Origin: Prosthecobacter debontii
GTDB taxonomy: Bacteria; Verrucomicrobiota; Verrucomicrobiia; Verrucomicrobiales; Verrucomicrobiaceae
Assembly: GCF_900167535.1 (NCBI RefSeq)
Contig: NZ_FUYE01000001.1
Location: 496,001-560,000, forward strand
Direction of reading: 5' to 3'
DNA: 64,000 bases
Positions within the stretch are counted from its first letter, which is position 1. Each line of letters begins with the position of its first letter. This document shows positions 29,974 to 64,000 of the stretch, piece by piece. The notes under the pieces were generated by a model. It worked only from the letters and a program-made list of their open reading frames with translations, did not search any database and was not told the origin of the DNA. Both the position numbers and the translations under genes were made by a program.

Positions 29974-32900
29974 TCACTGCAGCCGTTTGAGCGCGTTTTC
30001 GGCCGTGCGTTTGGGATTGGGGCCGAGCTTGGGTTCTTTGAGCAGTTGTGCGAGCAGGCGGCGTGCCTCTTCCTTACGTCCCAGGCGTTCGAGAACATCG
30101 GTTTTGCGGAAAAGATAGTTAGCTCGCAAGCCGACATCGTTGCCGACGTCAGCCATGGCTTGGTCGTAAAGCGCGAGTGAGGATTCGCCGGCGGAGGGAG
30201 CCACGAGATCGGCGGCTTCTGCGGCGGTGCGACCACGGCGAGGGAGGGCCTTTGCAAAAGCGAGGCCGGCCTCCGGCAATTCTTCCAGAGTGATGAGCTT
30301 GTGCGTGTTGACGATCAGGCTGATCATGTTGGGGATGCCGGTGCCAGCGGTGGGGTATTTGTCCTGCACCCAGGAGTCTGCCATCATGCCGGTGAGGATC
30401 TGGATGCGTTCTTCGATGGGAAGCTTGGGTTTAGGTTTGCCAAAATAACCTTGGCACACAAAGAACGTGTTGCGGTTTTTGACGAGGGTTCGCAGTTCCT
30501 CCGCATCTTTTGAGCTGAGGTTCTTTTTCCACGTTTCGAAGGCTCGGGCATCACCCTCGATCGTGTGCAGCATCAGCTTGAGCAGAATGGAGGTGCCAAG
30601 CGAAGGGTTGTTCCCATGGCGGGGGCTGGCTTCGATCAGTTTGTCCGTGTAAGCCAATACCTTTTTCAGATCACCGCGCTCATTACGGCTCCAGTGCCAC
30701 TCCAGATAATCCAGAACCGGGCTAGCGAGATAATTGTAGGTATAGGCGCGCAGCCTTTCGTCTGTTGTCGCTTCGCTGTCGCGGAGTTCCTGAAACAGGC
30801 GCAATAGATTTGTGTCATCGCCAGTCGTCCAGAATTGATGAGCCAAGCCTGCGGCGATGGGTTTCATCCGGCGGAAGGTCTTCCAGGTATCCGCCAACTC
30901 CAAAATCTCTGAGGCCTTGCTTTTTTGAGCGAGTGCGAGGTATTCCTCGTGAAGAAGCGAGAAGGTCTCGAATAAGGTGGCGGTATGCTCCAGGCAGCGG
31001 GTGCGGATCTCGTCGTCCTTGAAGGGGGTCGCTTTGAGTTTCGGCACGGCATTGAGAATGCGCCGGTTATGATCGATGAAGCCTTGGGCTTGGAGTTGTT
31101 TGGGCGGGTCTTTCAAGACGGCGCAGATCATTTCACCCAGCATCGCGAGGTCCGGATTGTTGGAGCAACTGGCTATGAACTTGGGTAGTTCTTCAGTGAG
31201 TGCGGGGGTGAACTCAATGCCCGTGTAGGGATCGTAAAGAAAGTTGGCCCACTGCTGCTCCAGCCACTGCTGAGCCGCAGTGTGAGCGCCATTGGTGACC
31301 AGGGTGACGAAGGCGCTGGGATCGTCATTGAGGGAGGTCATACCCTCCGCCAGCAGACGTCGAATGGCTTCGTCATGGCCTAGCCGGGCGACGATGCCCA
31401 GCATGGCGCATGGCGTTTCATCCCGTGGGCTGTAGGCGCGATTGCGTGAACTGTTTTCATTGTTCCGGCTGTTTCGCACGACCCAGGCTTCCCACTGCTC
31501 CTGAGCTGCGGTTTTCCAGGCTTCATTGAGCGGTAGCTGGCAGAAGGCCCGCGCCAGTGGCGTGAAGTGAAAGTCACCGCTGACGGCATGAAAAGCACGC
31601 TGCTCTTTGGCGATCAGGTCCATGCTCTTGCGTACGATGTCAGGATCAGGTCTGCGGATGTCTTTCGTGGCTAGATGCGCGGCCAAGGCGATGCGAACTC
31701 GGGGATTGATCTGCTCATCATTCATCTGTTGTCGGTAGTGCTCCCAAGCGGGAGCGAGGCCACCCAGTGAGCTCAGAGTTTTTTGCAGCTCTTCATTGCC
31801 GAGTGCATTGCTCTCCGTGCCGAGATAGAATCTGCCGGCACAGGCCAGTTCGCGGCGCAGAGATTGCGTGTCCGTGGAGTCTTCTTTGAGCGCGGCTTTC
31901 AGCACGGGCACACGCATGCCTGGGGGGAGCTTGACATAAAATTCGTAGAAGCCTAAGGCGAGTAAGGTGGGAGAGGTCTGGCCTAACTCGCGATGGAGTG
32001 AGGTGAGAAGCTCATTTACAGCGGCGGCGGGTCTGGCTTGGCCTCCGGCTTTCTTCCAGGCATCCATGAGGGTGTTGCTCCAGTGGCCTTCCTGGCTTTT
32101 GCCGTCCAGGATCAGCATGCCACTATCATCTTCTTGACAGAGCTGAAGGGTGAAGGCGAGGGCCGTTAGGCCGGAGGCTTGATCATCAAAATCATCCACA
32201 AGCTCGCTGCGATAGGTCCAGCCTTCGGACCAACTGTCGCCGTTCCAGCCGTTGCTCCGGGCCTTGGCCTCGATGAGCTGGGCTGCATTCAGGAAAAGCT
32301 GACGAGCCAACTCGCGATCAGAGTTGACGAGACCTGCCATGAGACGAGGCACTTGGTTCTCGAAGATGTTGTCTGAAATGTTCACTTCTGCCAAGCTGGA
32401 GGCTTTCGTGATGCGCTCGATTTCGTCTTTCTGGGCGTTCGTTTCCTTTTCCAACAGCGGAGCCAGAGCTTGGACTAAAGCGGCATCGGCAGTGGCGGGA
32501 TTGTTCAGGGCCGGGATCGCTGTTTTGAGCAAGGCGTTGAAGGTGTTCGCTCGCTCTGGGGGGATCTTTTTCAAGTCTTCACGGCGCTTTTTCAGCGCCT
32601 CAGTCAAGGTGGCGGGGACATTCTCTTGAAGCATGGCTAAGAGAATGTCGCTGCCAAAAGTTTGCGGTGTCCGAGCTTGAATCTTTTTCTTCACCTCGGC
32701 TAGGAGTGAAGGTTTATCGCGCAGATTTTTGACAAGCTCGGTAAGCGGGTGCTCGCGTCGATGGGTCGCTTTGAAGCTTAGGTAAGTGGGGGCTTCGCTC
32801 AAGGCATGGATGGCATCGAGGAATGTGAGAGTCTCGTCCGCGCCGTTCGCGGCGACGCTGCTCATGCTGTAAATCTGGTTGCCCATCCAGGTTTCATTTT

Positions 32901-35900
32901 CGCTGAGGCCGATCATTGCGGCCAGCTTCATGCCTATGCTAAGGAGGCCCTCTTTCCGGGTCATGTCTTCAATCGTTTGACCGGTGCAATAGGCTTGCCG
33001 ATCGTTGAAGGCACCGCCGTTTCCGTAGCGGGTCGTTACCCAAGTATCCATGCGTTTTTTCCAACTCGTTTCAGCCCCCAGAGCGCTGATCAGCCATTGA
33101 TGCAGAAACTCGTCTTCGGAGGCTCCTGCGACCTGCTTCCGGCGCGTTTGTAGAAAAACGCTGAGATAATCGTAGCCGTCATAGTCCCCTGAAGTGTTGC
33201 TTTTGTGGAAGGTGTAGATGACTTCATCGAGGACGGGGTTGCGGATGTCACGAGCCGCCCAGCAATCCGAAAGCCACACGAGCTTTTGTTGATGTTGTTT
33301 GAAACTGGTGTCCAATTTGACTCCCGTCTTCAGGTAGCTGAGTGCGGTGCTCGTGAAGTCCTCTTCCGGGCAGGTCCAGAGTTTGGCTTGCAGTAGCCAG
33401 GGGGCTGAGTCCTCCCGTGTGCGAGCACTGGTGATGAGGGGGAGGATCTCTCTCTGTAGGCGCTCGGTTTCACCCTTCTGCCAGGCCTGCCAGATCAGAT
33501 ATTCCGCCGGGGTGGGATTGGGGAGGGCCGCAGCCATCTGCATGTAGCCGTTACTGGATTTGGGCATACGTTGGACGCGGCTGAGAGCGGCTGCGGACTT
33601 GAGGATCTCAATGGCCCGTCGGTGGAGGTCTTCTTGCACGGCTTTAGAGTCGCCCGTTTCGGCCAGTCGTGTGCAGGCATACCAGCGGAAGCCTTCATCG
33701 GCCAGGGACGGATAAGCCATCATGGCGAGGCAGAGACGCTGATGCACCTCGATTAGGCGCCGCATTTTAGGGCCATCCTGGCTTGCACTGGAGCTAGACG
33801 CCTGGTTTTGATAACGTTGATGGAGGTAGAGAGGATTGCGCCCATACTGAAGTGAGCGGGTCAGGGCGACGGGCAGATCGACAGCCCATTCCAGAGCTTT
33901 CGACGATTGTTGTATGGGTTCAGATGCAGGCTCTTCCAATCGGCTGGCGATGGCCTCGATCAAACCGAGCCGTGACTCGAATTCCATATCCCAGGAATTG
34001 GACAGCACCTGGATGAGTTCATTGCCCAAACCGCTTCCCAAGGATTTGAGTGAGATCTGCTTGAGCAGTTCGGCGGCTTTCTGGGGCTCTTTAGGGGCTG
34101 TGACGATGATTAACCGAACACGTGTGTCATGGTCATTGGGGTTCTCGTCCAATAGTTTCTGATAAAGGGCGGTCGCCTCAGGGACCTGATCCAGCATCTC
34201 CAGCAGGCCTGCATATTCACGTCGTTTTAACACCGAAGAGCCCTCTCCAGGATTGAGATTTTTCATCAGCTCAGCGCGCGCCTCTTTGATTCCCGTCAGA
34301 TAGGTGAGCACGCGCTTGGTTTCGGATTTGGCGTAGCTCGAATTGTTTTGGCGGAAGTTGCTGCTGTAGAGGTTTTTGAGAACGTTCGAGGCTTCACGAA
34401 GGATGGCTTCACGATTGCCTTTCGCGATGAGATTTTGGAGTTTGCTGGTCGAGCTCGAAGAGGAGTAAGAAACATAGTTGCTGCTGCTGGAGGCAGGCAC
34501 CATGGCGGCCACTCGTTTCCATTGATTCGCCTCCTCGGTCATGCCTAGCGTAGTCATCGCGACGATGAGTTCGTCTCTCTCGGAAGTGGTGACTCGTTTG
34601 CTGCGCAGACGGCGCAAGGCTTGGCTGGCCGCCTGGAGCAAGGGTGGGGCAGGTTTGTCGAGAAGGGTGGCTGAATAAACCAGGGCTGCATCCACCTGGG
34701 CGCGAAGATCTTGGTCCAGCGGCTGAGACTGGATCTTCATCAGCCACTCCGCTGCCTGCCGATGATCTTCTTTTTGTTGCGCCACTCCTGCCGAGAGCAG
34801 CCAGTCCTCCACACTTGCGGACGGATTTTCCAATCGGGCTTTGAGCTCCTTTTCCATACCTTCCGTATCGCCAGATTTGCAGGTGAGGACGAAGCGGAGG
34901 ACCGGATTCTTGACTGTGGATAAAAGGGGTTTCAACGGCTCGAAATCTGATTCGATGAGGACTCCATCGGAAGGATCTGGATTGTAAAAGTCTTTCCGTT
35001 GGAACCAGAACGCCACATGCGGTGGTAGGGTGATTGCCGGAGGAAAGGGAATGGCCTTCAGTAATTTGATTTGAGCGTTACGAATCTGTGGAAGTCCCAA
35101 TTTGGCGATCATGCCGGTGCGTTTGGCAGGGTCTTGAAACAGTTCGACCTCGGCTTCGAGGATCTGGATCAGTTCCGGCCAGCGTTCAGCTGCACGGGCG
35201 GAGTTGGCGACCCAGGCGAAAGGCGTGGTGCGTCCGTTGTTGTCTTGGGTTTCGGTCAGTAGCCGGGTTAGGAGCTTGAGCATCCGGCTGGTTTGATCGT
35301 CTGTTAGGTCATAGTTCATCCCGTAGGAATTGACCCGCTGGCCTCCACCCAAAAGCTGACTGAAGGAAAAAAGGGTAGATGTCGAAACTTTACCTTTTCT
35401 TTCAAATGCGTCCAAAGCTTGGTCTAACCACGACCGTCCTAGTAGCGGATCCGTGGGGAGTGTGGAGATGACAAGCGCCAGAGAGATGACGGGGTAGTTT
35501 TTGCCAAAAGCTTCAAAGGCTTTTTGGGACGCTAAAGGCTCCATCGAACTGAGGGATGAAGTCAAGGCCGCATGAGCTAAAAGCCCTTCGTCCCAGCCGG
35601 AAGCCTCCAGATTTTCCTGCGGCACGGAGATGCTGTAGCGTGCCATATCCGGCACCATGTAACGCAGTTGCCGCGTGGCAGGCAGCCCGGCGGTATCGGC
35701 TTGAGACCACACCAAGGCGGCACGAGATGGGGGGAGGGACTGAGTGAGGCAGATGAGGTGTGCCGCGACCATGGCAGGGACCGATTCCACATTTGGCGGG
35801 AAGTAAATGATCCCGTTTGAGCTCCGCATGTTAAAGCGCCGTTGATACTGATGCTGATAACTCTGATAGAGCCCCACATTGAGCATCTTTTGCAGAGCCT

Positions 35901-38865
35901 GATAGGAGGTGGGGAGTTCTTTGGCCGCTTCATTGACCAGGCTCATGTAGAACCAGGGGGCGGTGGCTGTGACGGTTTTCGTTTGGGTATTGCTGGGGAG
36001 TTCGGCTTTGATTTTGATGAGATCACAAAAAGCCTGGGCGGCTTCTTCTAGCTGATCATCTTCTTCCAGAGCCACGGCCCGTACATAAGCCAAGCGGTAG
36101 TCTTCGGGGTGTTTCTTGAGGATGGGATCGATGAATTCCAGCAGCCGTTTCCAGTCTCCCCGCGCCGCCATGCCATCAGCGAGACGTATGGCATCTTTCG
36201 GCTCCATCTCCGCGCCGCCTGCGATGTTGAAAAGCATGCGGTAACCGGCGGCTTCATCTCCATACGTGAGATGCAGAGAGGCGATCTGCTGGAGGCTGCG
36301 TGAGGTGGTATCCAGGGCGGCCGCTTTTTCCAGGGTGCGCAGGGCGTCTTGCCACTGTCCGCCATCTTCTTCCGCACGGGCGAGCTGCTGGAGAAGATTC
36401 ACATCGCGTGGCGTGAGGCGTGATGCTTCGGCTAGGGCCAGGCGGCGCTCCGCATCGTTTTGACCGATGCGGTGGATCTCTGCCAGAGCCAACCAGGGCA
36501 TGGGGTCTTGTCGATGGGCGCGCTGGCGCTCTTGAAAGGTCTCGATCACCCGGCTGAGAGTTCCGCGTGCATAGGCGGCCTGGGCGAGGGTGGTGACCCA
36601 ACGTTTTTTGGTGTCCGGCTCTTCAGCTTTGTCATAATACGTTAGGAAAAGCCGCTCCGCTTCGGCCGTCTGACCGGAATAGATGAGAGAGGTGGCTAAT
36701 GAACTGGCGAGGCCTTCTTCATCTTCGAACTTCCGCACAGCGCTGCGTAGCACCTTCACCGCTTCTTCGGGCTTGCCATCGGTATTGAGCAGCTGGGCTT
36801 CCATCAGCCAAGGCTGCGCGGCGCTTGGAGAGAGGGCTTTCCAATCAGGAATCCATTTCAGGGCCTGCTGGGGGAGGCCGGCACGGGAGTAGAGATCCAC
36901 CACCCGCTGGAGATTCTGCGAGGTGCGTCCTTCGGGGAGGGGGATGATTTTTTCAGCTTCCTGAGCGGCGCGGGTGAAGTCCTGACGTTTTTCGATCAAC
37001 CGAACGAGTTGGTTTTGCGCCAGCAAGGTGTCCGTGGGTGACGGGTTTTGTAAAGTTTGTTCGGCGGCTTCTTTGTCTCCGCTGGCTTCCTGCAGTGCAG
37101 CCAGGAGGCAGCGTTCCTGGATTTTTAGCTCTGTTTGTCCGCGCAGGCGGTCGAGTATTTCTTTGCCTGCGTTGGCTTGGGTGAGCAGTTCTACGGTTTG
37201 CCTGACGGCATCTTCGAGGAGACTTTCATCACGGGCCAGACGCACTCGAGTGAGAGCCCATGGGATGGCTTCTTTCAGCCGATTGAGGCGGAGTTGTACC
37301 CGGTCAGCTTCTTCCTTGGCATTGATCTCACGCGAGTTCAGGGTCGCGTGGATCAGCGCTGTGAGATAGCGGTCTTCCTGGCTAAATTTCTCGCGATGCT
37401 CATACAGCACCTCACGTGCCGCGTCAGGCTCCAGCCGGGTGGTGAGGGATTGGGCTATGGCGAGGAGTTGCTCCAGATCATCTGTTTTGGCCAGTTCCCG
37501 CCACAGGGTAAGAGCGGCGTCGCGCTCGCCGATGCGATGTAAAAAATGCGCCTGGGCTTCTCGCGCGGAGGGACTCTGCGGGAAGGTCTTCACCAGGGCT
37601 TCATAAGCGGCCTTGGCTTCGGCCTTGAGCTCCCAGGTCTCCAGCAAGCGTGCGGCGCGCAGGTGCTCGTATTCACCCGAGTTGGGGAGGGCTAGATAAT
37701 GGGTGAGGGACTCCTGCGCGGCTTTCAGGTCCTTGTTTTTCTGGTGCAGACCGGCCAACCGGATGTGCAGTTCTCCATCGGTGGGGTTTTGTTCTTGAAG
37801 CAGTTTTGTTTGTTCAATCGCCTCGCTGTATTTTTCCAACCGAGTCAGGAGGTCCAGATAAGCCTCACGCAGGTCCCGTTGCCCCGGGGTGCGCTGGAGG
37901 AGATCCTGATAAATCATCAGTGCTTTCTCACCCGCACCAGTTTCCGCCAGAATGCGCGCCTGCTGCTGGAGCAGGCGGGAACGCTGCGGATGGGTTTTTT
38001 GCAGCGTGCTGAGGTGAGTTGTCAGTCCAGATAGATCACCGCCTTTGCGAAAGGTACCCTCGATTTGAGCCAAGATCTCGCCTTCCACCCAGCTACCCTG
38101 GCCGGACTTTTCTAGGGCTTCGGCATAGACCTTCAGGGCTTCTTCACGCTTGCTGGCACGCGTGAGGATATCCGCCAGGAGAAGACGGCGGGTGACCGCC
38201 ACGGAGGTGTCCTTGGTTTTTGAGATCAGTTGGCGGCAGAGGGCGGCGGCTTCATCCAGCAGGCCTTCGCCCACCTGGACGTCGATCAATTCTTCCACCA
38301 GATCTTCATCGTCTGGATGTGCGGCCAGGAGATCCTGCCACACTTGAAGCGCCTCTTTCGTGTGGCCCGTGCGCAGCAGGAGGCGCCCCTGGAGCTTGCC
38401 AATATCGAGCGCGAGTTCGGGGGTAGGCTTCTGCACCGTGGCCTGGGTGAGGGATTGCAGCGCTGCGTCAAAGTTGAGCATCCGCGCTTCCAGGCGCCCT
38501 CGCTGAAGCCAGGCTGCGGCATTGCTGGGGTTTTGGGTTAATGCGTCTTGATAGGCTTTGAGCGCTTCAGCTTCCCGGCCTTCGTATTCATGGAAGAGGG
38601 CCAGCACGAGGAGGTCGTTCGCGGTGCCCGTGCGCTGCTGGAGGTAGGCGGCTAGGGATTCACTGCTGTCCGTTTCCAGCCAGGCATTGATGAATCGATC
38701 CATCACCAGCCCGGGTTGAGGGCGCTTGCGCAGCAGCTCGTGATACTTCGTGGCTTGCTCGGATTGAGCTTTGAGGCCTTCCGGCAGAGCTAGCCAAGCC
38801 AGCCCAACCGCTGGAGCGAAGAGCGTGGCCTGACGTAGAAAACGAGAACGTGACCGGGATGGCAT
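29974..38865 (-). CDS. Giant exported TPR-repeat protein (2963 residues)
   Basis: One uninterrupted frame of 8.9 kb. Signal peptide MPSRSRSRFLRQATLF with a hydrophobic core ending near LKAQ (residue ~34). The first ~1000 residues contain many TPR units, for example AAAWLQRGRLEARMLNFDAA, LHIRLAGLHQKNKDLKAAQE and SAREAQAHFLHRIGERDAAL. The remainder stays alpha-helical with weaker repeats and ends in a TPR-like LRANYLFRKTDVLERLGRKE. No transmembrane span is obvious after the signal. It is the first gene of the Bat-type operon; in classical Bat operons BatC and BatE are TPR proteins of only a few hundred residues, so this may be a giant equivalent. Its size suggests a long periplasmic solenoid scaffold. 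The function is inference. Confidence 0.85.
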   Translation of the reverse strand: MPSRSRSRFLRQATLFAPAVGLAWLALPEGLKAQSEQATKYHELLRKRPQPGLVMDRFINAWLETDSSESLAAYLQQRTGTANDLLVLALFHEYEGREAEALKAYQDALTQNPSNAAAWLQRGRLEARMLNFDAALQSLTQATVQKPTPELALDIGKLQGRLLLRTGHTKEALQVWQDLLAAHPDDEDLVEELIDVQVGEGLLDEAAALCRQLISKTKDTSVAVTRRLLLADILTRASKREEALKVYAEALEKSGQGSWVEGEILAQIEGTFRKGGDLSGLTTHLSTLQKTHPQRSRLLQQQARILAETGAGEKALMIYQDLLQRTPGQRDLREAYLDLLTRLEKYSEAIEQTKLLQEQNPTDGELHIRLAGLHQKNKDLKAAQESLTHYLALPNSGEYEHLRAARLLETWELKAEAKAAYEALVKTFPQSPSAREAQAHFLHRIGERDAALTLWRELAKTDDLEQLLAIAQSLTTRLEPDAAREVLYEHREKFSQEDRYLTALIHATLNSREINAKEEADRVQLRLNRLKEAIPWALTRVRLARDESLLEDAVRQTVELLTQANAGKEILDRLRGQTELKIQERCLLAALQEASGDKEAAEQTLQNPSPTDTLLAQNQLVRLIEKRQDFTRAAQEAEKIIPLPEGRTSQNLQRVVDLYSRAGLPQQALKWIPDWKALSPSAAQPWLMEAQLLNTDGKPEEAVKVLRSAVRKFEDEEGLASSLATSLIYSGQTAEAERLFLTYYDKAEEPDTKKRWVTTLAQAAYARGTLSRVIETFQERQRAHRQDPMPWLALAEIHRIGQNDAERRLALAEASRLTPRDVNLLQQLARAEEDGGQWQDALRTLEKAAALDTTSRSLQQIASLHLTYGDEAAGYRMLFNIAGGAEMEPKDAIRLADGMAARGDWKRLLEFIDPILKKHPEDYRLAYVRAVALEEDDQLEEAAQAFCDLIKIKAELPSNTQTKTVTATAPWFYMSLVNEAAKELPTSYQALQKMLNVGLYQSYQHQYQRRFNMRSSNGIIYFPPNVESVPAMVAAHLICLTQSLPPSRAALVWSQADTAGLPATRQLRYMVPDMARYSISVPQENLEASGWDEGLLAHAALTSSLSSMEPLASQKAFEAFGKNYPVISLALVISTLPTDPLLGRSWLDQALDAFERKGKVSTSTLFSFSQLLGGGQRVNSYGMNYDLTDDQTSRMLKLLTRLLTETQDNNGRTTPFAWVANSARAAERWPELIQILEAEVELFQDPAKRTGMIAKLGLPQIRNAQIKLLKAIPFPPAITLPPHVAFWFQRKDFYNPDPSDGVLIESDFEPLKPLLSTVKNPVLRFVLTCKSGDTEGMEKELKARLENPSASVEDWLLSAGVAQQKEDHRQAAEWLMKIQSQPLDQDLRAQVDAALVYSATLLDKPAPPLLQAASQALRRLRSKRVTTSERDELIVAMTTLGMTEEANQWKRVAAMVPASSSSNYVSYSSSSSTSKLQNLIAKGNREAILREASNVLKNLYSSNFRQNNSSYAKSETKRVLTYLTGIKEARAELMKNLNPGEGSSVLKRREYAGLLEMLDQVPEATALYQKLLDENPNDHDTRVRLIIVTAPKEPQKAAELLKQISLKSLGSGLGNELIQVLSNSWDMEFESRLGLIEAIASRLEEPASEPIQQSSKALEWAVDLPVALTRSLQYGRNPLYLHQRYQNQASSSSASQDGPKMRRLIEVHQRLCLAMMAYPSLADEGFRWYACTRLAETGDSKAVQEDLHRRAIEILKSAAALSRVQRMPKSSNGYMQMAAALPNPTPAEYLIWQAWQKGETERLQREILPLITSARTREDSAPWLLQAKLWTCPEEDFTSTALSYLKTGVKLDTSFKQHQQKLVWLSDCWAARDIRNPVLDEVIYTFHKSNTSGDYDGYDYLSVFLQTRRKQVAGASEDEFLHQWLISALGAETSWKKRMDTWVTTRYGNGGAFNDRQAYCTGQTIEDMTRKEGLLSIGMKLAAMIGLSENETWMGNQIYSMSSVAANGADETLTFLDAIHALSEAPTYLSFKATHRREHPLTELVKNLRDKPSLLAEVKKKIQARTPQTFGSDILLAMLQENVPATLTEALKKRREDLKKIPPERANTFNALLKTAIPALNNPATADAALVQALAPLLEKETNAQKDEIERITKASSLAEVNISDNIFENQVPRLMAGLVNSDRELARQLFLNAAQLIEAKARSNGWNGDSWSEGWTYRSELVDDFDDQASGLTALAFTLQLCQEDDSGMLILDGKSQEGHWSNTLMDAWKKAGGQARPAAAVNELLTSLHRELGQTSPTLLALGFYEFYVKLPPGMRVPVLKAALKEDSTDTQSLRRELACAGRFYLGTESNALGNEELQKTLSSLGGLAPAWEHYRQQMNDEQINPRVRIALAAHLATKDIRRPDPDIVRKSMDLIAKEQRAFHAVSGDFHFTPLARAFCQLPLNEAWKTAAQEQWEAWVVRNSRNNENSSRNRAYSPRDETPCAMLGIVARLGHDEAIRRLLAEGMTSLNDDPSAFVTLVTNGAHTAAQQWLEQQWANFLYDPYTGIEFTPALTEELPKFIASCSNNPDLAMLGEMICAVLKDPPKQLQAQGFIDHNRRILNAVPKLKATPFKDDEIRTRCLEHTATLFETFSLLHEEYLALAQKSKASEILELADTWKTFRRMKPIAAGLAHQFWTTGDDTNLLRLFQELRDSEATTDERLRAYTYNYLASPVLDYLEWHWSRNERGDLKKVLAYTDKLIEASPRHGNNPSLGTSILLKLMLHTIEGDARAFETWKKNLSSKDAEELRTLVKNRNTFFVCQGYFGKPKPKLPIEERIQILTGMMADSWVQDKYPTAGTGIPNMISLIVNTHKLITLEELPEAGLAFAKALPRRGRTAAEAADLVAPSAGESSLALYDQAMADVGNDVGLRANYLFRKTDVLERLGRKEEARRLLAQLLKEPKLGPNPKRTAENALKRLQ

Positions 38866-39168
38866 GGCAAGGTGGAGAAATTCCGACGCGGTTTATCAAA
38901 ACAGCCCTGAAAAAACAAGACAGTTAGGGGGCCCAACTTATAAACACTTCGCAAGACGGTCACGGTATCGTCTGCACACGCAGACGCTGCCGCCTGACGT
39001 TTTGTTCAATCCTCAGACGAATGGGCCGGGGGTGTTTCTTTGAAACAAAGTGCACAGGTCATGGATTTTTCTGGCACGCAGGGGGATTTCAGAGAGTGTT
39101 TTTCGTCCATTATCGAAAAAATAAGTCCGGTGCGGCGTAGGTATGCCCAAGCCCTCATCCTCGTCTCC
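38866..39168. other. Divergent promoter region (giant TPR gene / cytochrome gene)
   Basis: 303 bp between divergent starts. The right-hand gene has an in-frame ATG at 39040 that would add 43 residues before the signal peptide; that stretch has no signal-like character and is treated as noncoding. I saw no strong hairpin or promoter consensus. Confidence 0.55.
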
Positions 39169-42033
39169 ATGACACCCCCTCGTTTCGCTACTCGTTTCAC
39201 CCTGCTCAGCCTCGCTGTGTGGCCGTCTTTTGCGCTGGCCAACCCGGCACCTGCGCCTGCGACTGCACCCGCTTCGGCGGCGGCATCGGCACTGGTGGAT
39301 TTTACCCAGGTGCAGGCCTTGCTGGAAAGCAAGTGTTTGGAGTGCCACAACCCGGATAAGGTCAAAGGCAAGCTGCTGATGAACACGGCGGAGGCCATGA
39401 TCAAGGGCGGCTCCTCCGGTCCCTCCCTGGTGCCGGGTAAGCCGGACGAGAGCGAGCTTTTCAAGCGTGCCCTTCTTCCCGCAGATCACGACGACATCAT
39501 GCCACCCAAAGGCGGACCTCTGGCCGCAAATGAGCTGGATCTGCTGCGTCGCTGGATTGCGGAAGGAGCCCATTGGCCCCAAGGGCTGACCCTGCGCCAC
39601 AAGAGCCCCGAAGAGCTGAAGGCCTTAGCGGACCTTAATGCCAAGCTGCCTTCTCTGACCAAGCTGGAAATCTTCCCAGAGAAGTTCGCCCTCGAAACCA
39701 AGCGCGACTTCCACAAGGTCGTGGTGATGGCCACCTTTGCGGATGCCACCACCCGGGACGTGACCCGTTTTGCCAACCTGCGGACGGCGGATGCCAAGAT
39801 CGCCACGCTGGACGGTGATGTGCTGAAGCCAGTGGCCGATACGGGCAGCACGGAACTGCAAGCCACTCTGGGCACGACGAATGTAAAGGCGGCCGTCACC
39901 CTGGCCAATGGTCATAAAGACCGTCCGATTTCCTTCAATCTGGATGTGATGCCCGTTTTCTTGCGCGGTGGTTGTAACGCCGGGGGCTGCCACGGCGCGG
40001 CCCGTGGCAAGGATGGCTTCCGTCTCAGCCTCTTTGGTATGGACCCTCAGGGGGACTTTATCCGCCTGACCCGTGAGATGGTGGGTCGTCGCATCAACCT
40101 AGCCATCCCTGAGGAGAGCACCTTGGTGGAAAAAGCCGTGGGTGCCGTGCCTCACTCCGGCAACCAGTGCTACGAGCCGGAGTCTGAATACAATAAGACC
40201 ATCCTGGAATGGATCAGCAACGGTGCGCCTAACGACGGCAAGGACATTGCCAAAGTGACTGGCATCGAGGTTTTTCCGAAACAGATCGTCCTAGAAGGCG
40301 TGGGCAACACCCAGCAGATCACCGTGCGTGCCACCTACTCCGATGGATCGGACCGCGATGTAACCAAGCTGGCGTTGTTCATGTCCAACAACGACCCGAC
40401 CGCGACGATCAACAAAGACGGTCTGGTCACCAGCGGCGAGCGTGGCGCAGCCTTCATGCTGGCACGTTTCGATGTTTACAGTGTCACCGCTCAAGTCCTG
40501 GTCATCCCGGCCAAACTGGAATACGAACGGCCTAAGCTGGCGGAAGTGAACTACATCGATAAGCTGGTGGACGAAAACCTCCACAAGCTGCGCATCCTGC
40601 CCAGCGGTATCTGCACCGATGAAGAGTTCGTGCGTCGTGCCTACATCGATGTCATCGGTTTGTATCCCAAGCCTGATGAAGTGAAAGGCTTCCTGGCAGA
40701 TGCCAACCCGAACAAGCGCGAAGCTCTGATCGACAGCCTCACTCAGCGCAAGGAGTTCACCGAGCTGTGGGTGATGAAGTGGGCGGAGCTGCTCCAGATC
40801 CGCTCCGACATCGCCAACAACAACAACCAGCCCCCTTTCTACAAGAATGCGCTCTTGTATTACAACTGGTTGGCCGAGCGTATCGGCAAGAACATCCCTC
40901 TCGATGAGGTGGTGACCGAGCTGCTTTCCTCCACGGGCGGCACGGTTTCTAGCCCAGCCGTGAACTTCTACCAGACCGAGCTCGACCAGCTCAAGCTCAC
41001 GGAAAACGTGGCGCAGGTGTTCATGGGCATGCGCATCCAGTGCGCTCAGTGTCATAACCATCCGTTCGACCGCTGGACCATGGACGACTACTATGGGTTC
41101 AAAGCTTTCTTCGCTCAGATCGGCCGCAAGCGCACGGATGACCCCCAAGAGGTGATCATCTATAACAACAAGGGCGGTGAATCTCGTCACTTCTTGACCA
41201 ATGCGGTGATGAAACCCAAGTTCCTGGGGGGGGAGGTGCCGGAGATCAAACCTGGTGAAGACCGTCGCAAAGTCCTGGCTGAGTGGATTGCTTCTCCCCA
41301 GAACCCTTACTTCGCTCGCAACATCGCTAACATCATGTGGGCGCACTTCTTTGGTATGGGTATCGTCGATCCGGTGGATGATGTGCGCGTCTCCAACCCG
41401 CCTTCCAACCCAGAACTCCTGGCGGCTCTGGCGGAAAATCTGACGAACTACAAGTATGACATGCGCCGTCTGGTGAAGGACATTTGCAACTCCATGACCT
41501 ACCAGCGCAGCACGAAGGTGAATGAAACCAATGCGGGGGATAAGAAGAACTTCTCCCACGCTCAGGTGCGTCGTGTGCGGGCTGAAATCCTGCTGGATGC
41601 CATCTCTCAGATCACTGAGACGCCTAACAAATTTCAGGGTCTTCCGCTGGGTGCTCGTGCGGTGCAGATCGCCGATGGTGCCGTGAGCAATTACTTCCTC
41701 ACCACCTTTGGCCGCTCCAAGCGTGAATCCGTCTGCTCATGTGAGGTGAAGATGGAGCCTAACCTCTCACAGGCCCTGCACCTGATGAATGGCGATGCCA
41801 TCAATGATCGCATCAAGCAGGGCAAGGTCGTGGCCAAGCTCATTCAGGAGAAGAAGAACGATGCTGAGATCGTCGAAAATCTTTATCTGCGTGTCTTTGG
41901 CCGGATGCCCAATGACAAGGAGAAGGAATCCCTCTTCCAGACTTTGGCGGCAGCGCCCGAGCAGCGTCAGCAGGCCCTGGAGGATGTGTTCTGGGCGCTG
42001 ATGAACTCCAAGGAGTTTTACTTCAATCACTAA
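39169..42033 (+). CDS. PSCyt1-DUF1549-DUF1553 (PSD1) cytochrome-type protein
   Basis: 954 residues from ATG at 39169, chosen because a proper signal peptide follows (RFTLLSLAVWPSFALA). The first domain is a planctomycete-type cytochrome with CLECH (C56, C59, H60) and an MPPKGG distal segment. A beta-rich linker follows (GIEVFPKQIVLEG), with CNAGGCHGAARGKDGF in between. DUF1549 is recognised by RRAYIDVIGLYPKPDE and the CAQCHNHPFDRWTMDDYYG motif, and DUF1553 by NPYFARNIANIMWAHFFG and LVKDICNSMTYQRS. The family is thought to be periplasmic and redox-related, but its reaction is unknown. It is usually followed by DUF1501; here it is followed by a cytochrome-WD40-coiled-coil gene 85 bp downstream. 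Confidence 0.88.
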   Translation: MTPPRFATRFTLLSLAVWPSFALANPAPAPATAPASAAASALVDFTQVQALLESKCLECHNPDKVKGKLLMNTAEAMIKGGSSGPSLVPGKPDESELFKRALLPADHDDIMPPKGGPLAANELDLLRRWIAEGAHWPQGLTLRHKSPEELKALADLNAKLPSLTKLEIFPEKFALETKRDFHKVVVMATFADATTRDVTRFANLRTADAKIATLDGDVLKPVADTGSTELQATLGTTNVKAAVTLANGHKDRPISFNLDVMPVFLRGGCNAGGCHGAARGKDGFRLSLFGMDPQGDFIRLTREMVGRRINLAIPEESTLVEKAVGAVPHSGNQCYEPESEYNKTILEWISNGAPNDGKDIAKVTGIEVFPKQIVLEGVGNTQQITVRATYSDGSDRDVTKLALFMSNNDPTATINKDGLVTSGERGAAFMLARFDVYSVTAQVLVIPAKLEYERPKLAEVNYIDKLVDENLHKLRILPSGICTDEEFVRRAYIDVIGLYPKPDEVKGFLADANPNKREALIDSLTQRKEFTELWVMKWAELLQIRSDIANNNNQPPFYKNALLYYNWLAERIGKNIPLDEVVTELLSSTGGTVSSPAVNFYQTELDQLKLTENVAQVFMGMRIQCAQCHNHPFDRWTMDDYYGFKAFFAQIGRKRTDDPQEVIIYNNKGGESRHFLTNAVMKPKFLGGEVPEIKPGEDRRKVLAEWIASPQNPYFARNIANIMWAHFFGMGIVDPVDDVRVSNPPSNPELLAALAENLTNYKYDMRRLVKDICNSMTYQRSTKVNETNAGDKKNFSHAQVRRVRAEILLDAISQITETPNKFQGLPLGARAVQIADGAVSNYFLTTFGRSKRESVCSCEVKMEPNLSQALHLMNGDAINDRIKQGKVVAKLIQEKKNDAEIVENLYLRVFGRMPNDKEKESLFQTLAAAPEQRQQALEDVFWALMNSKEFYFNH

Positions 42034-42045
42034 TGCCACACGGAA

Positions 42046-42065
42046 TGCGGACGATGCCGTCCGCA
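42046..42065. repeat. Hairpin after the PSD1 gene
   Basis: 7-bp stem tgcggac / gtccgca with a 6-nt loop, 13 nt after the stop and 53 bp before the next start. It has no T-run, so read-through into the WD40 gene is likely. Confidence 0.4.
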
Positions 42066-42118
42066 CCGCTCGCGAATGCTACGGCATCCGCCCGTCTCTC
42101 TATTTCTGATTTTTCGCT

Positions 42119-45100
42119 ATGAAGACCCACGCCAAGATCCTTTCACTGAGCTTTCTGACAGCTGCCAGCGCAGCGGCTCAGGATGCCGAAAAGATCACTT
42201 ATGAAGATCACATTCGTCCGTTGCTGGAGAATAAGTGCTTTTCCTGCCACAGCCCGGATAAGAAGAAGGGAGATCTCGATCTCACCAGCTTCGGTGCCCT
42301 GATGACGGGTGGCGGTGGTGGTGCCATCGTGGATGCTGGAAACTCGGATGCCAGCCGCCTGTGGACGACCTGTGCGAAGAAGGAAGAACCTTTCATGCCA
42401 CCGGAAGGTGCGCCCCTGAACGAGAAGGAACTGGCCATCCTCTCCAAGTGGATCAACGGTGGTTTGCTGGAGACGAAATCCAGCGTGGCAAAAAAATCCA
42501 CCAAGCCCAAGGTGGATATGGCTGTGGCTGTGACCAGTGGTAAACCTGAAGGCCCAATCGCCAAGCCCGAGAACGTTCTGCTGGAGCCGGTGATCGTGAC
42601 TCCACGCACCACGGCGGTGACGGCCATGGCGGCGAGTCCTTGGACCTCCTTGGTCGCTCTCGCGGGCACCAAACAAATTTTGCTTTACGACACGGACACA
42701 CGCCAACTCGCGGGGGTGTTCCCCTATGAGGAAGGTTATGCCCGCAGTCTGCGTTTCAGCCGCAATGGCTCGCTCCTGATCATGGGCGGCGGTCGTGGTG
42801 GCAAGATGGGCCATGCCATTGTCTGGGATGTGAAGACGGGCAAGCGCATCGTCGAGGTCGGCAAGGAGTTCGACCAAGTGATGAGTGCGGATATCAGCCC
42901 GGATCAGAAAATGGCCGTCATTGGCAGTCCTTCCAAGAAAGTGAAGGTGTATGACACCGCGACGGGTGAAGAGCTGTATGTGATCAGCAAACACACCGAG
43001 TGGATCATGGGCACTTCGTTCAGTCCTGATGGAGTGCTGCTCGCCACCGCAGACCGTAATGGCAACGTCATGGTTTGGGAAGCCTCCAATGGCGGTGAGT
43101 TTTACATCCTGGGTCAGCACAAGGGTGCTTGCACCGATCTGGCTTGGCGTGGTGATTCCAATGTGCTCGCCTCCTCTTCCGCCGATGGCACCATCAGCAT
43201 CTGGGAGATGAATGAAGGCAAGCAGATCAAAAATTGGGCTGCCCATGGTGGTGGCGTCCAGTCCGTCTCCTTCACACCGGATGGTAAGCTCGTTTCCAGC
43301 GGTAACGATGGCTTGATCCGCCTTTGGGACATCAATGGTAACAAGGTGGGTGAAGCACCTAGCCAAGGGGATGTGGTGACGAAAGTGACCGCGCTTTTCG
43401 ATTCTAAGTCGGTGGTTTCGGCCAACTGGCGTGGGGAGATCAAGCTGTGGTCCCTCGAAGCCAAGATGGCGGAGCGGGGTCAGCTTTCCAGCAATCCCCC
43501 ATTGATTGCGCAGCGCATCGTCGAAGCTGAAAAAATCGCGACCACCCTGGTGGCGCAACTGCCTGAAGTGGAAGGCAAGGTCAAACAAACCGCTGATGCA
43601 GTGGCCGCCGCAGAGGCTCGCCTGGCGGAAACCAAGAAGCAATCCGCAGCAGCTCAAGCGGCGGTGGCTGCTCTGGAAAATGAGATCAAGAATCTGCCTG
43701 GCCAGATCGCTGCAGGCGAGAAAGCTGTGACGGAAGCTCAATCCAAGCGCAATGCTCAGGCGGAGCTGCTGAAGAAGCATGAGCAATCCCTGGCGGAGAT
43801 CAAAACCACCGAGGCTGCCTTGGCGAAACTCAATGCCGATAAAGCGGCTCTCACGAAGCCAGAAGATGCGCCTAAAGTCGCAGAGCTAACCAAAAGCATT
43901 GGTGAGCAGAGCGGTAAGCTGGAAGCGCTGAAAAAAGCCGCAGCGACGCCCCCACAAGCCCTGGCTGGCTTTGATCAAGCCGTGAAGGCTGCGCAGGACC
44001 AAGTGGCTGCGCTCAAGGCCGCCAAGCCTGGGAAAGAGAAACAACTGCCTGAGCAGAAAAAGGCCCTGGAAGCATGGCCCAAAAAGATCGCGGATAACGA
44101 GAAGCAGATCGCTGATGCCAAAGCGGCTGCGGCTTCGGCTCAAGCCCAACTGGCCGATCAGAAAGCTCAGATCGCGCTGTATCAAAAACTGCCCACCGTG
44201 CTCAAAGCCGCTCAGTTCAATGTCGGCGTGTTGAGTGAGAAGGAAAAACTTGCGAAGCTGGAAGGCGATATCAACGACTACACCGCTGCGAAAAAGGAGA
44301 ACGAAGACGCCAAGGTCGCCAATGCCGCCAGCATCGAGAGCGCCAAGAAAGCCATCGCCGAAGCGGTCAATCAAATCCCGCAACACGAAGCGACTCTCGC
44401 ACGCTTGAAGGCGGAACTGGAAGGCCTGGAAAAAGCCACGGAACCGACCCGCGCCGCCGATGCGGCGGCCGCCGCAAAACTGAATGAGCACAAGCAAATG
44501 CTGGCGGCTCGTGAAGCCGAAGTGGCTGCGCTGGCCAAGACCCGTGATGAAGGCGCTGCAGCTGCTAAAAAATCGGCGGAAGACATTCAGAAGGTCATTG
44601 ACCCGCTGAACAAAAAGCTCGTCGAAGTCGCGGCCAAGCTCAAAGGCCCTGAAGAACAACTGAAGGCCAAACAAGCCAATGTGACTCTACAAGAAGGCAG
44701 TTTGGCGAAGGCCAAGCAGACCGCAGCGGAGCGCACCGCTGCCCTGCCTGCTCAGGAGAAAGCCGTGAAGGATGCCGAAGCGGCCCTGCCTCAACTCGTC
44801 GCAGCGATCCAATCTGCCGATAAGACCCTGGCTGAGATTCGCCGAGCCACCGCAGGCACCGGCTCCGCCATCAAGTCCGCGCGCCAAGCCGTGGCTCAAG
44901 CCGAAAAAGCTCTCAACGACGCAAAGGCGAAAAACGAAAACGCTCAGCCTCACGAGCAAGCTCTGACCGCTGCCCAAGCGAAGCAGGCCGAAGCCGAGAA
45001 ACAAGCGGCTGAATCCACCCTGAAACTGGCCGATGCTCAGTCCGAGTTCGATGCCCGTCGTGAAGCCCGCGAAGCGGCTGATAAAGCTTTGAATGCCGCA

Positions 45101-45670
45101 CGTCAGACCTTGGCTAAAACCAAGAACGAACTGAACGCCGCCAATGCCGCCGCCGCCCAAGGTGAGAAGCGCGTGGCCCAAGCCAAAGCCGAAGTCGCCG
45201 CAGCCGAGAAAGCCGTGGCTCCGATCCGAGGTCAGCATGACAGCATCAGCAAGGAAATCGCTGCCCAGAAAAACGCCCTCGCCGCAAAGCAGGCCATCCC
45301 TGCGGCCCTGGAGAAAGAATTCGCCAGCAAAGCTCAACCGTTGAACGACGCCATCGCTCAACTCAAAGCTGCCCTACCGCCACTGGAGAAAACCTATGCG
45401 GACGCACACGGTAAACTCGTAGCCGAGGTGAAAATCCTCGATGCGAAGAAAGCCGAGATTGGTCAGTCCATGCTGGCTCTAGAAACAGCCAAGAAAAAGA
45501 AAGCCAGCTCCGAGGCCACCATCGCCGCTGCTGAGAAAGACACTCCACAGCGCGACAGAAACCTCGCCGAGATCAACACCGAACTCGCCAAGATGCAGCC
45601 TCAACTCGAACCCCTGCGCACCAAAGTGAAGCAGATGGAAGAGCAGTATCTGACGATGCTGCCGAAGTGA
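42119..45670 (+). CDS. Cytochrome-WD40-coiled-coil protein
   Basis: 1183 residues. Signal peptide to about residue 21. The cytochrome domain starts at KITYEDHIRPLLENK with CFSCH (C40, C43, H44) and FMPPEGAPLNEKEL. Residues ~165-460 form a WD40 propeller: IWDVKTGKRIVEVG, VYDTATGEELYVISKHTEW, VWEASNGGEFYILGQHKG, IWEMNEGKQIKNWAAHGG and LWDINGNKVGEAP. From ~470 to the end the chain is a ~700-residue Ala/Lys/Glu/Gln-rich coiled coil with many repeats (EKAVKDAEAALPQL, AEKQAAESTLKLADAQSE). Cytochrome plus WD40 is known in PVC bacteria; the long coiled-coil extension is the striking part. No transmembrane span beyond the signal. Probably co-transcribed with the upstream PSD1 gene. Confidence 0.85.
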   Translation: MKTHAKILSLSFLTAASAAAQDAEKITYEDHIRPLLENKCFSCHSPDKKKGDLDLTSFGALMTGGGGGAIVDAGNSDASRLWTTCAKKEEPFMPPEGAPLNEKELAILSKWINGGLLETKSSVAKKSTKPKVDMAVAVTSGKPEGPIAKPENVLLEPVIVTPRTTAVTAMAASPWTSLVALAGTKQILLYDTDTRQLAGVFPYEEGYARSLRFSRNGSLLIMGGGRGGKMGHAIVWDVKTGKRIVEVGKEFDQVMSADISPDQKMAVIGSPSKKVKVYDTATGEELYVISKHTEWIMGTSFSPDGVLLATADRNGNVMVWEASNGGEFYILGQHKGACTDLAWRGDSNVLASSSADGTISIWEMNEGKQIKNWAAHGGGVQSVSFTPDGKLVSSGNDGLIRLWDINGNKVGEAPSQGDVVTKVTALFDSKSVVSANWRGEIKLWSLEAKMAERGQLSSNPPLIAQRIVEAEKIATTLVAQLPEVEGKVKQTADAVAAAEARLAETKKQSAAAQAAVAALENEIKNLPGQIAAGEKAVTEAQSKRNAQAELLKKHEQSLAEIKTTEAALAKLNADKAALTKPEDAPKVAELTKSIGEQSGKLEALKKAAATPPQALAGFDQAVKAAQDQVAALKAAKPGKEKQLPEQKKALEAWPKKIADNEKQIADAKAAAASAQAQLADQKAQIALYQKLPTVLKAAQFNVGVLSEKEKLAKLEGDINDYTAAKKENEDAKVANAASIESAKKAIAEAVNQIPQHEATLARLKAELEGLEKATEPTRAADAAAAAKLNEHKQMLAAREAEVAALAKTRDEGAAAAKKSAEDIQKVIDPLNKKLVEVAAKLKGPEEQLKAKQANVTLQEGSLAKAKQTAAERTAALPAQEKAVKDAEAALPQLVAAIQSADKTLAEIRRATAGTGSAIKSARQAVAQAEKALNDAKAKNENAQPHEQALTAAQAKQAEAEKQAAESTLKLADAQSEFDARREAREAADKALNAARQTLAKTKNELNAANAAAAQGEKRVAQAKAEVAAAEKAVAPIRGQHDSISKEIAAQKNALAAKQAIPAALEKEFASKAQPLNDAIAQLKAALPPLEKTYADAHGKLVAEVKILDAKKAEIGQSMLALETAKKKKASSEATIAAAEKDTPQRDRNLAEINTELAKMQPQLEPLRTKVKQMEEQYLTMLPK

Positions 45671-46286: not shown

Positions 46287-46851
46287 ATTCTTGCGGCATG
46301 CATTTCTCTCTAACGAAAGTCCAGCCTGTCCAGGTGGCGCAACGACGTGGCTGTCCCTGAGTGAATGCACTGTGCCGGACGATCCCGTGGCCTCGCTTCG
46401 CTCCACCACGGCTACTTATGTTAACCCGCAATGCGGGTATACCGGAAAGTAGCGCTTTCGTTTTTGTCGCCCGTTCGGCTTCATCTGGGCTTGAAGCGCT
46501 GCACCGACTAAAGCCTGGACTCCAGTGCAAGGATTCCTTCCGCACCGCTACGGATCTCCCCCCCTTGACTCCCGGCCTGTGAATCCCCCAGGTCCGGGAT
46601 GGCATGGCGACGGGTGGATTCGGTTGTCACCTTTTGTTCCCTGGTTTGTTCCCATTCTGAGCCTTGGGAGACAACGGGTTACGGTGGGAGGCGGGACAAA
46701 ATGAAAAAGTCGACAAAAAGGCCGGCCGAGGTTCACAAAGTTTCATTTTGAGTGTCCGGTTTGGGCCTCTGACGTGGGTTGGTTGATCCAGGCGAAAAGT
46801 TTCGGGGTTGATGGTCCGTTTCCTTGCGTCTGCTTTTCCCCAACCGCGTTT
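46287..46851. other. Intergenic region with palindromic repeats
   Basis: 565 bp with no convincing gene. Two palindromes are visible: ccgtgg (46385-46390) / ccacgg (46406-46411), and acccgca-a-tgcgggt at 46424-46438. The end just before 46852 is pyrimidine-rich (tgcttttccccaaccgcg). An in-frame ATG at 46774 would add 26 residues to the next gene without adding a signal peptide and is rejected. Confidence 0.55.
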
Positions 46852-63500: not shown

Positions 63501-64000
63501 CTCTACCTGGAATACGGCACCAACATCAGTGGCGTCGATCTCCGCGTCACCAATTCCCTGGATACCTCACGCACCGTTCTGCGTGCGGAAGGCACCACCC
63601 ACAGCACCTGGGGCGGAGACATCATCATGGACATTGCCGACCAAGCCGGTTCAGGTGAGTTCCAAGCCAATGTGATCACGGCTCGCAACAACGGCACGCT
63701 GACCATCTCAGGCAATATTTATACCGCCAACAATGAGAACTACACGGACAACGATACCTGGAATGATCCGGCGATCCTGTCCACCGCCATCGGTGAACGT
63801 GGGACCATCAATCTGAAAGGCCAGGTGCGGGATACGGTAGATGGGCCGCTGGCGAATGTCGGTGCTACAGGGGATAGCGCCACACGTCTGGACCGCAATC
63901 ACTCGATGGTGTTCCAGATGCGCGGTCACGATGAGATCAACGTGAATGCCTTCCAACAATGGGATGCTACGGGCTCCCTCTTTGCCACCCAGGGTTACTT
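60552..64000 (+). CDS. Autotransporter-associated beta-strand-repeat protein, C-terminus missing
   Basis: Partial gene: 1149 codons open from ATG at 60552 to the right edge. A signal peptide (LGRLALICSLVSCAINTAFA) is followed by GSWNSDTSANWSDTTRWLNG, the typical opening of these large passenger proteins in Verrucomicrobia. Repeats of the PF12951-like type occur throughout: FTKIGTNTFIIDN, FTKRGNRELRLTNSNPNFKG and LVKTGRNNLYLETWNDITGN. The composition is rich in Asn, Gly, Thr and Ser with few cysteines, as expected for a right-handed beta-solenoid. Whether it ends in a barrel or a PEP-CTERM-like sorting signal is outside the window. A role in adhesion or surface structure is inferred. Confidence 0.85.
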   Translation, partial: MKKPHLDLRRLGRLALICSLVSCAINTAFAQTTGSWNSDTSANWSDTTRWLNGTVPNGVDHIAQFNFQISTNRTITLDSGVGSAVTLGGLRLGDVSGGSGYTISGGTLTFEASAGNAFITKLNKGGNDTIASTIRLNSAVDVEVQDTNSNSQGIIFSGLVTGGTSGVPIINFSALNADTSVRWLLINRNTNDFAGQIVVNSGLLRLEGGARNTTSNTFGANTAGLRGVGNETIINNGGRVDLRDSDYDVQADDTEIFSIAGAGPNNLGALVNTSSTGTLSHLILAEDATVGGYSTIELRPHLNAAGDTTIAAILDMGGNDFTKIGTNTFIIDNADIQNKTGSSWNIHEGTLQFRNRGLMAGGPSSNNNVDGMTFNVGYYRGTFDGVDLTNGSRTSDPFNPNRTNSDLAGNAVAAARVTFRTDWGTGNTHPANTKVTETFDGLTFNLNNGSLVREGNTEAGRMFDQIFTTTTTFNLVGGDLSGNIFNMSGGSGGYNSATATYDHPGVTEIQGQIDNTSGENDGTGFTKRGNRELRLTNSNPNFKGEVLVKQNTGRFMPAQYSTSSPTTGAPESQYFSMSLAGADGGLNQASSITLTRWGSLALLNNSTNPVFNSVNNNDRLNDNGLLNLRNGFLIMETDAFDANTENFGNVVADLGTNYLFLDTRAGGQFDGSFESLDFNNGGVLKIYNMNGNHVWGTQATDDRLQLNNTAGLPLVGSSSPGSNTQQVIPGLFGGSLPASFVATTGLPVARTDYTIQNAYAYGGSGIGLMTLDNGYLRPLTASEYSVGDTPVANSNWLVDRYIPAGNASDRANYEQRNITSDVTVNSLTIAFNPTSSGQLDPTAARDYIIIEPGNTLTINSGIINFASFIESVNSNAEAIIRGGSLDMNGQAAIINSALTRHDLDANSGTFTTFMPGSSAFMRSNIINATDLVKTGRNNLYLETWNDITGNIYVGEQAGLYVRHPGALGEGAAGRELVIGGAGNLYLEYGTNISGVDLRVTNSLDTSRTVLRAEGTTHSTWGGDIIMDIADQAGSGEFQANVITARNNGTLTISGNIYTANNENYTDNDTWNDPAILSTAIGERGTINLKGQVRDTVDGPLANVGATGDSATRLDRNHSMVFQMRGHDEINVNAFQQWDATGSLFATQGY

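Follow-up and report, generated by a model that had tools for sequence, protein, structure and literature searches.

A giant TPR protein co-inherited with a MoxR/DUF58/VWA operon in scattered Verrucomicrobiota

Why should a gene for a 2963-residue protein stand at the head of an operon for a MoxR-family ATPase, a DUF58 protein and two VWA proteins? The question is raised by a 64,000-nucleotide stretch of the Prosthecobacter debontii genome (contig NZ_FUYE01000001.1, positions 496,001 to 560,000; hereafter the window), in which the giant tetratricopeptide repeat (TPR) protein P0001 is followed on the same strand by the genes of P0002 to P0006. Our survey covered the phylum Verrucomicrobiota. 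Its results indicate that the giant and the MoxR operon very probably form one functional module, which is optional and is either present or absent as a whole in scattered members of the phylum.

Co-inheritance of the giant and the operon

Two genome samples were searched, one of 288 genomes of the order and one of 387 genomes (197 genera) of the phylum, with a profile of the operon DUF58 protein (A3, 16 rows) and a profile of the first 1000 residues of the giant (A4, 12 rows). The thresholds for the order sample were E <= 1e-70 for A3 and E <= 1e-60 for A4. The window's own genome is part of each sample and the query alignments have rows drawn from order-sample genomes, so those matches are not independent; neither profile contains a sequence from the 11 phylum-sample genomes outside the order. 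In the order sample, the DUF58 profile matches 38 of the 288 genomes, with a single copy in each, and all 38 are among the 43 genomes matched by the giant profile (giant copy numbers were scored on the two best candidates per genome and so reach two at most). In the phylum sample, the two profiles match the identical 16 of 387 genomes, which represent 12 genera and 7 coded families. The corresponding Fisher p values are 2e-42 for the order and 1e-28 for the phylum, with shared ancestry ignored.

The exceptions are few. Five order-sample genomes carry the giant without the DUF58 protein (G064, G140, G069, G285 and G282), and four of these hold another part of the operon: matches to the P0002 family are found in G064 and G140, and proteins 57% and 53% identical to P0006 in G069 and G285, respectively. 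G282, with no P0006 relative at 1e-40 and a MoxR match of at most 49%, remains an exception. Three genomes of the same sample (G023, G164 and G182) have a P0002 match without a giant at the threshold; the match of G182 is weak and its MoxR reaches at most 50%, and it was counted as negative. P0002 also matches eight records in a collection of genome contigs, two from Prosthecobacter sp. and six from Verrucomicrobia or Verrucomicrobiaceae, all of them metagenome-assembled.

The gene order was mapped, with a tblastn recheck, in 40 loci: those of 29 of the 38 DUF58-positive order genomes (G042, G157, G162, G169, G176, G215, G268, G274 and G287 lie outside the mapping) and those of the 11 phylum-sample genomes outside the order. 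The giant lies immediately upstream of P0002 in 30 of the 40 loci (21/29 within the order and 9/11 outside it). All six genes keep the order of the window in 28, and contig ends truncate the other two giant-upstream loci, G020 and G331. In 33 loci the five genes that begin with P0002 and close with the last VWA protein are in order; contig ends intervene in G020, G331, G401, G530 and G043, no VWA protein follows the BatA-type protein in G065, and P0002 and MoxR are on one contig and DUF58 on another in G026. The giant directly follows the last operon gene in G086 and G141, and a giant frame of 2530 codons in G109, running from the contig start, would end convergently beside that gene. Two tandem giants stand ahead of P0002 in G331 (G331:C14) and after the operon in G141 (G141:C27), and the operons of G401 and G530 lie without a giant on short contigs of 7.0 and 4.3 kb. 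The end of a further TPR gene was seen just upstream of the giant in G084 (G084:C2, L121). Collectively, the identical sets of genomes and the recurrent upstream position bear out the initial annotation, which had placed the giant with the MoxR/DUF58/VWA set.

The partnership is specific to this operon. The window's genome has eight MoxR genes, and only that of P0003 has a giant within a 20-kb stretch; around each of the other seven, a stretch of equal length contains no open reading frame larger than 1387 residues, the largest of them all. Nine neighbours of those loci were scanned, and they include BatA-type proteins, an Omp85-type protein and a transglutaminase. A giant partner as a general property of MoxR loci is excluded by this count of one in eight. 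Furthermore, a paralogous DUF58 (the C2 locus) occurs in 177 of the 288 order genomes, against 43 with the giant, and does not track it.

The 48 genomes of the window's genus in the order sample allow a finer comparison. Eleven have the operon DUF58 and the adjoining giant (named giant A), and the same eleven encode a second giant on a separate contig; the contigs of G020 and G213 are short, so the unlinked position of the second giant is not established there. The other 37 are below the thresholds, 36 of them without any part and G023 with fragments, and the Fisher value for these threshold sets is 4e-11. The short contig of G023 (G023:C138:1-4622, L051) carries the C-terminal part of the giant and a MoxR match of 81%; the sequence ahead of the giant part is unrelated and resembles a mobile-element end or a join made in assembly. 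G037, from another genus of the same family, has the operon with one giant match only.

Presence was traced on a tree of one gene, the paralogous DUF58, with 49 rows: 45 of the 48 genus genomes and four of other genera. G006 (a weaker match, judged a paralogue) and G127 and G019 (no marker match) are omitted, and G023 is in the tree and uncounted. The best tree has nine changes of presence, at least four of them on well-supported branches; a repeat without five rows that are incomplete or on long branches (G104, G191, G213, G015 and G023) gives eight changes, of which at least three are forced. The long branch of G104 arises within the genus although this genome belongs to another one, which illustrates the limits of a tree built from one gene. 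The operon and the giant have identical states in every row counted.

These data bear on the simplest alternative, namely that an independent giant just happens to travel with the operon. Adjacency lets one event gain or remove both, so that the pattern shared by giant A and the operon needs no more than one linked event each time, and the genus tree cannot separate this from a functional tie for giant A. Against this, the second giant shows the same genus pattern as the operon, for which shared function is the simpler reading; the giant is kept in G043, G065, G026 and G100 though it lies on another contig; and both the identical 16 phylum genomes and the single giant among eight MoxR loci argue in the same direction. 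We regard mere linkage as quite improbable.

Further giant TPR proteins of about 3400-4000 residues are encoded at a distance from the operon (G000:C3:362527-372711, L033 and L074; G018:C1, L075; G001:C83, L076; G026:C96, L079) and are related to P0001 over about 2200 residues. The flanks of the second giant at G000:C3:362527 hold no MoxR; resistance-nodulation-division efflux genes, a DUF3686 AAA protein and an M64 peptidase found there gave no functional lead. A contig filed as viral in IMG/VR (L039, an 8.3 kb piece of 20.6 kb) encodes a MoxR 56% identical to P0003, and the 8.3 kb piece holds no relatives of the other five operon proteins; the contig is possibly bacterial DNA.

The giant protein and its operon partners

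Table 1 Features of the giant gene and its operon in the window.
Feature	Position	Strand	Description	Basis
P0001	29974..38865	minus	giant TPR/alpha-solenoid protein, 2963 residues, 332 kDa, isoelectric point 6.1	open reading frame, TPR families, helical models, orthologues
P0001 N-terminus	38767..38865	minus	signal peptide likely at about residues 1-33, with QSEQATKY next; then conserved KY..LL.KRP...FDRF	by-eye reading, orthologue N-termini
P0002	28205..29878	minus	membrane protein, 557 residues, long Gln/Ser-rich, probably coiled-coil region	alignment, hydropathy, Pfam search
P0003	27099..28184	minus	MoxR-family AAA+ ATPase, 361 residues as called	AAA_3 4.1e-64, AAA_lid_2, Walker A
P0004	26105..26968	minus	DUF58, short form, 287 residues, DxSxS motif DCSPS	DUF58 3.7e-33
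P0005	24322..26094	minus	BatA-type VWA protein, 590 residues, DHSAS	BatA 2.9e-12, VWA_2
P0006	21787..24297	minus	VWA and GATase1-like membrane protein, 836 residues	VWA 4.3e-28, GATase1_like 3.5e-20

The giant gene is intact, as first annotated: its frame runs over 2963 codons from an ATG start to a stop with no internal stop. The orthologues that adjoin the same operon have 2937-3093 residues in the order (complete mapped genes) and 2594-3786 elsewhere in the phylum, and such similar lengths beside the same operon exclude a chance reading frame. TPR families exceed the Pfam cut-off in P0001 (TPR_14 with 102.7 bits and 1.7e-30, TPR_19 with 66.2 bits and TPR_16 with 54.1 bits), and the strongest stretches lie within the first third. 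The last two thirds (residues 935-2963) were modelled with AlphaFold2 from 12-row orthologue alignments. Residues 935-1960 form 53 helices and two 3-residue strands, with a predicted local distance difference test score (pLDDT) of 75.9 and a predicted template modelling score (pTM) of 0.50; residues 1940-2963 form 60 helices with no strand of at least 3 residues (pLDDT 84.2, pTM 0.71). As a whole, the protein therefore looks like one very long alpha-solenoid in these predictions.

In bins of 100 residues, the mean identity of 10 orthologues to P0001 ranges from 0.26 to 0.44 within residues 1-1000 and from 0.15 to 0.27 after that. Over 19 operons, pairwise distances between giants correlate with MoxR distances (Spearman 0.69) and with DUF58 distances (0.79), as is expected from linked inheritance, and the correlation is not in itself proof of contact. 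Many orthologues begin with classical-looking signal sequences, which are followed by the conserved motif given in Table 1. Of the exported helical TPR solenoid described in the initial annotation, the repeats of the first third and the helices of the last two thirds thus stand, and export is likely, judged from the orthologue N-termini and the by-eye reading.

A long TPR protein may also serve as the periplasmic arm of an outer-membrane polysaccharide or secretion exporter, as in PgaA, BcsC and PrsT, and NCBIfam does return matches to these three families. The matches are weak, with 100.9 bits against a curated cut-off of 312.2 for PrsT, 42.7 against 366.65 for PgaA and 30.8 against 858 for BcsC; no beta-barrel appears in the modelled last two thirds; and the six proteins include neither a glycosyltransferase nor a synthase. 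An exporter is accordingly a very improbable explanation.

The six genes lie in the order P0001, P0002, MoxR, DUF58, BatA-type VWA and VWA with GATase1-like domain, and the giant heads the run as had been noted. They are separated by gaps of 95, 20, 130, 10 and 24 bases. The run is flanked by one gene that diverges from it, at 39040, and by another that converges on it and ends at 21355. In four relatives (G292, G275, G108 and G213), the giant gene shares 4 bases with that of P0002, an arrangement typical for translational coupling; the short gaps and these overlaps are consistent with co-transcription of the six genes. Promoter and terminator scans of the locus stayed at chance level (5 against 4.6 and 22 against 19.8).

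P0002 has no Pfam match at E <= 0.001. Eight orthologues searched to E 10 gave a best E of 0.014 and nothing credible, and a resemblance to DUF4175 is not supported, as none of the eight members matches DUF4175 at E up to 10. The family is recognisable across the phylum by a segment of the form ADxxFxLKDaL and a C-terminal ESFxxRxDxPxxxKxGVxxYFxxIH (17 sequences). Hydrophobic segments are clear at residues 30-46 and 139-155 and weaker, by eye, at about 57-74. Seven cysteines lie in residues 392-442, of which C429 and C433 are invariant among 8 genus sequences and the others variable.

For P0004-P0006, a DxSxS motif is present in the DUF58 protein, the BatA-type protein and the VWA protein, the part of the metal ion-dependent adhesion site that the analysis covered. 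P0004 has no hydrophobic segment in the hydropathy profile. P0005 and P0006 each have two N-terminal hydrophobic segments with basic residues between them and one C-terminal segment, with an additional weaker segment at 418-434 in P0005. Because of the basic residues between the N-terminal segments, their VWA domains probably face the periplasm according to the positive-inside rule.

The assignment of P0003 to MoxR is clear, with 214.8 bits for AAA_3, 59.4 bits for AAA_lid_2 and Walker A GVPGLGKT at residue 85 of the called frame; its nearest solved relative is 2r44 (3.2e-84). Since many orthologues begin near residue 33 of the P0003 frame, the true start may lie at about 28088. P0003 also exceeds the bpMoxR cut-off (46.6 bits), which together with the patchy distribution within the genus would suit a cytosolic MoxR-VWA ternary conflict system, a defence system here equipped with a TPR module. 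The bpMoxR score is far below that of AAA_3, and PADLOC matches are marginal (E 3e-4 to 5e-4). The membrane segments and export-type N-termini of the run also speak against a cytosolic system. In the excerpted text of PMC7159879, the third component of such systems is VMAP, iSTAND, FtsH or a beta-propeller, none of which is found among the six proteins; a WD40 protein is encoded divergently at 42119, with no relative beside the operon in the relatives compared. We therefore consider a defence role very improbable as well.

Two genes transcribed divergently from the operon, at 39040-45670, encode a PSCyt1/PSCyt2/PSD1 protein and a PSCyt1-WD40 protein whose tail is long, charged and probably coiled-coil, and neither has close relatives beside the operon in the loci compared. 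The gene at 46774-50811, which precedes a ThuA-like gene, encodes a 1345-residue protein in which a GDSL lipase domain is combined with DUF7133, HEAT repeats and, at the C-terminus, a plastocyanin-like domain. A reading frame of at least 1149 codons (60552-63998) runs off the window and has no Pfam match at E <= 0.001.

A candidate envelope machine

How might such a module work? We favour, with about an even chance of being right, a MoxR machine that spans the membrane and has the giant as its scaffold or receptor in the periplasm. MoxR proteins studied so far appear to be chaperones that mature specific complexes, usually with VWA cofactors (PMC3893208; this and the other papers cited are represented by excerpts), and the six gene products would form one envelope machine of this kind. 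In the cytosol, MoxR would form an AAA+ ring, use the short DUF58 protein as a VWA-like adaptor and act at the inner membrane on P0002 and on the two membrane-anchored proteins with probably periplasmic VWA domains. The exported solenoid would be the machine's own scaffold or receptor: its best conserved first third (about residues 40-950) may be the docking site for the membrane complex or for a client that both share, and the last two thirds, which vary more, may reach clients that differ among species. ATP-driven MoxR would then load, release or remodel an assembly on the solenoid, and an envelope complex would thereby be assembled, activated or checked for quality.

This proposal builds on the observed set of genes with its order and co-inheritance, on the Walker A and DxSxS motifs and on the helical last two thirds of the giant. 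The roles of periplasmic scaffold and ATP-driven regulator, which the initial annotation had given to the giant and MoxR, we infer from topology and protein families, as we do the cell location of the parts, their physical contact, the direction of force and the nature of the client. A more specific version, in which an AAA+-powered trans-envelope machine of an undescribed kind runs from a cytosolic MoxR/DUF58 motor through P0002, as a new membrane coiled-coil family, and the two periplasmic VWA proteins to one or more giants (about 2600-4000 residues) holding variable clients, and is inherited across Verrucomicrobiota as an optional whole, is a tentative possibility.

Several observations weigh against a scaffold machine. 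MoxR is presumably cytosolic and would hence have no direct contact with an exported giant. The topology of P0002 is ambiguous: two membrane crossings would place its coiled coil in the cytosol and three in the periplasm. The N-terminal h-region of P0001 itself is not flagged in the hydropathy scan. Foldseek and VIA-align comparisons of the P0001 models return generic TPR/HEAT solenoids only and no function beyond that; the best VIA-align Z score is 11.3 (IFT-A, root-mean-square deviation 17.9 over 308 residues), within the tool's uninformative range for repeats. The giant is on another contig in five of the 29 mapped order genomes (G026, G043, G065, G100 and G196), and for three of these, G043, G065 and G026, the end of the operon (one gene or more) is likewise missing from its usual position. 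Most genomes of the genus sample lack the module, which is therefore dispensable, and the sign test over well-supported pairs in the genus tree (4/4, p 0.125; 3/3, p 0.25) has too few pairs for significance. Finally, deletion of bat genes in Leptospira biflexa left growth, shape and oxidative-stress survival unaffected (PMC3557215).

The main rival of the scaffold is that the giant is instead the client, an exported structural solenoid that forms a surface or periplasmic filament or lattice and whose assembly is licensed by the MoxR/VWA complex via P0002. One partner gene per MoxR/VWA set fits MoxR systems that mature a single protein or complex (PMC3893208), and the second giant that tracks the operon in the genus, like the tandem giants of G331 and G141, looks as if several clients were served by one machine. 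The conserved N-terminal TPR third resembles a docking surface more than a uniform polymer, and no surface-anchoring domain was found in the family searches of P0001 or in the two models of residues 935-2963. On balance, the giant as client seems the less likely reading, and the scaffold or receptor remains our preferred role for it.

Known systems and significance

The locus had been called Bat-type. Bat (Bacteroides aerotolerance) operons comprise batA to batE with moxR and a DUF58 gene. They combine MoxR, DUF58, a membrane protein with BatA N-terminal and VWA domains, and one or more TPR proteins in one run, and the Bat proteins are proposed to form a membrane/periplasmic complex (PMC3557215, PMC5700661). 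MoxR and DUF58 lie in one run here too, and P0005 has the BatA N-terminal domain (PF07584, 47.3 bits against a cut-off of 25.9) next to its VWA domain with DHSAS. By contrast, none of the six proteins matches a BatD-type Pfam model at E <= 0.001; the small TPR proteins BatC and BatE are missing from the run, whose sole TPR-matching protein is the giant; and in the place of BatB, a second BatA-type VWA protein, P0006 carries VWA and GATase1_like domains without PF07584. P0002, without a Pfam match, is an extra family. The locus is thus a variant of the MoxR/DUF58/BatA-VWA kind and not a Bat operon proper, with three Bat features lacking and two parts added, and the earlier label holds for the BatA N-terminal domain, MoxR and DUF58.

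Two further systems are close in kind. RavA of Escherichia coli belongs to another MoxR subfamily, and to our knowledge the RavA-ViaA system has no TPR giant, DUF58 or BatA. In the RL3499-RL3502 operon (cmdA-D) of Rhizobium leguminosarum, MoxR is likewise accompanied by DUF58 and by BatA/VWA-GATase-like membrane proteins. This MoxR, of the MoxR-proper subfamily, is encoded in a conserved operon whose mutants are defective in envelope and cell shape (cited in PMC3893208 and PMC5700661), and a giant TPR partner is unmentioned in the excerpts of these two citing papers. RavA-ViaA shares with the present locus a MoxR-family ATPase and a VWA cofactor with chaperone-like maturation of a membrane complex (PMC3893208).

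By fold class, the modelled two thirds of the giant resemble Ski3, IFT-A, Ctr9 and importins; these are eukaryotic and cytosolic or nuclear, and they share with it no more than a common architecture of repeats, at Foldseek TM-scores of about 0.06-0.27. At rank 46 of the Foldseek matches to a P0001 model stands a flagellar periplasmic scaffold of Campylobacter. We found no description of a giant/MoxR partnership in excerpts of the open-licence literature, which agrees with the word undescribed in the initial annotation; the envelope machine that it went on to propose is plausible.

The targets of Bat-like MoxR/DUF58/VWA operons are unclear, and in the excerpted text of one study 'Bat function remains elusive' (PMC3557215). 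A dedicated, co-inherited giant partner, which can be tagged, deleted and used in pull-downs, makes the client of such an operon and its energy coupling testable. P0002 adds a protein family without a Pfam match, and the all-or-none presence of the module within one genus permits a direct comparison of close relatives with and without it.

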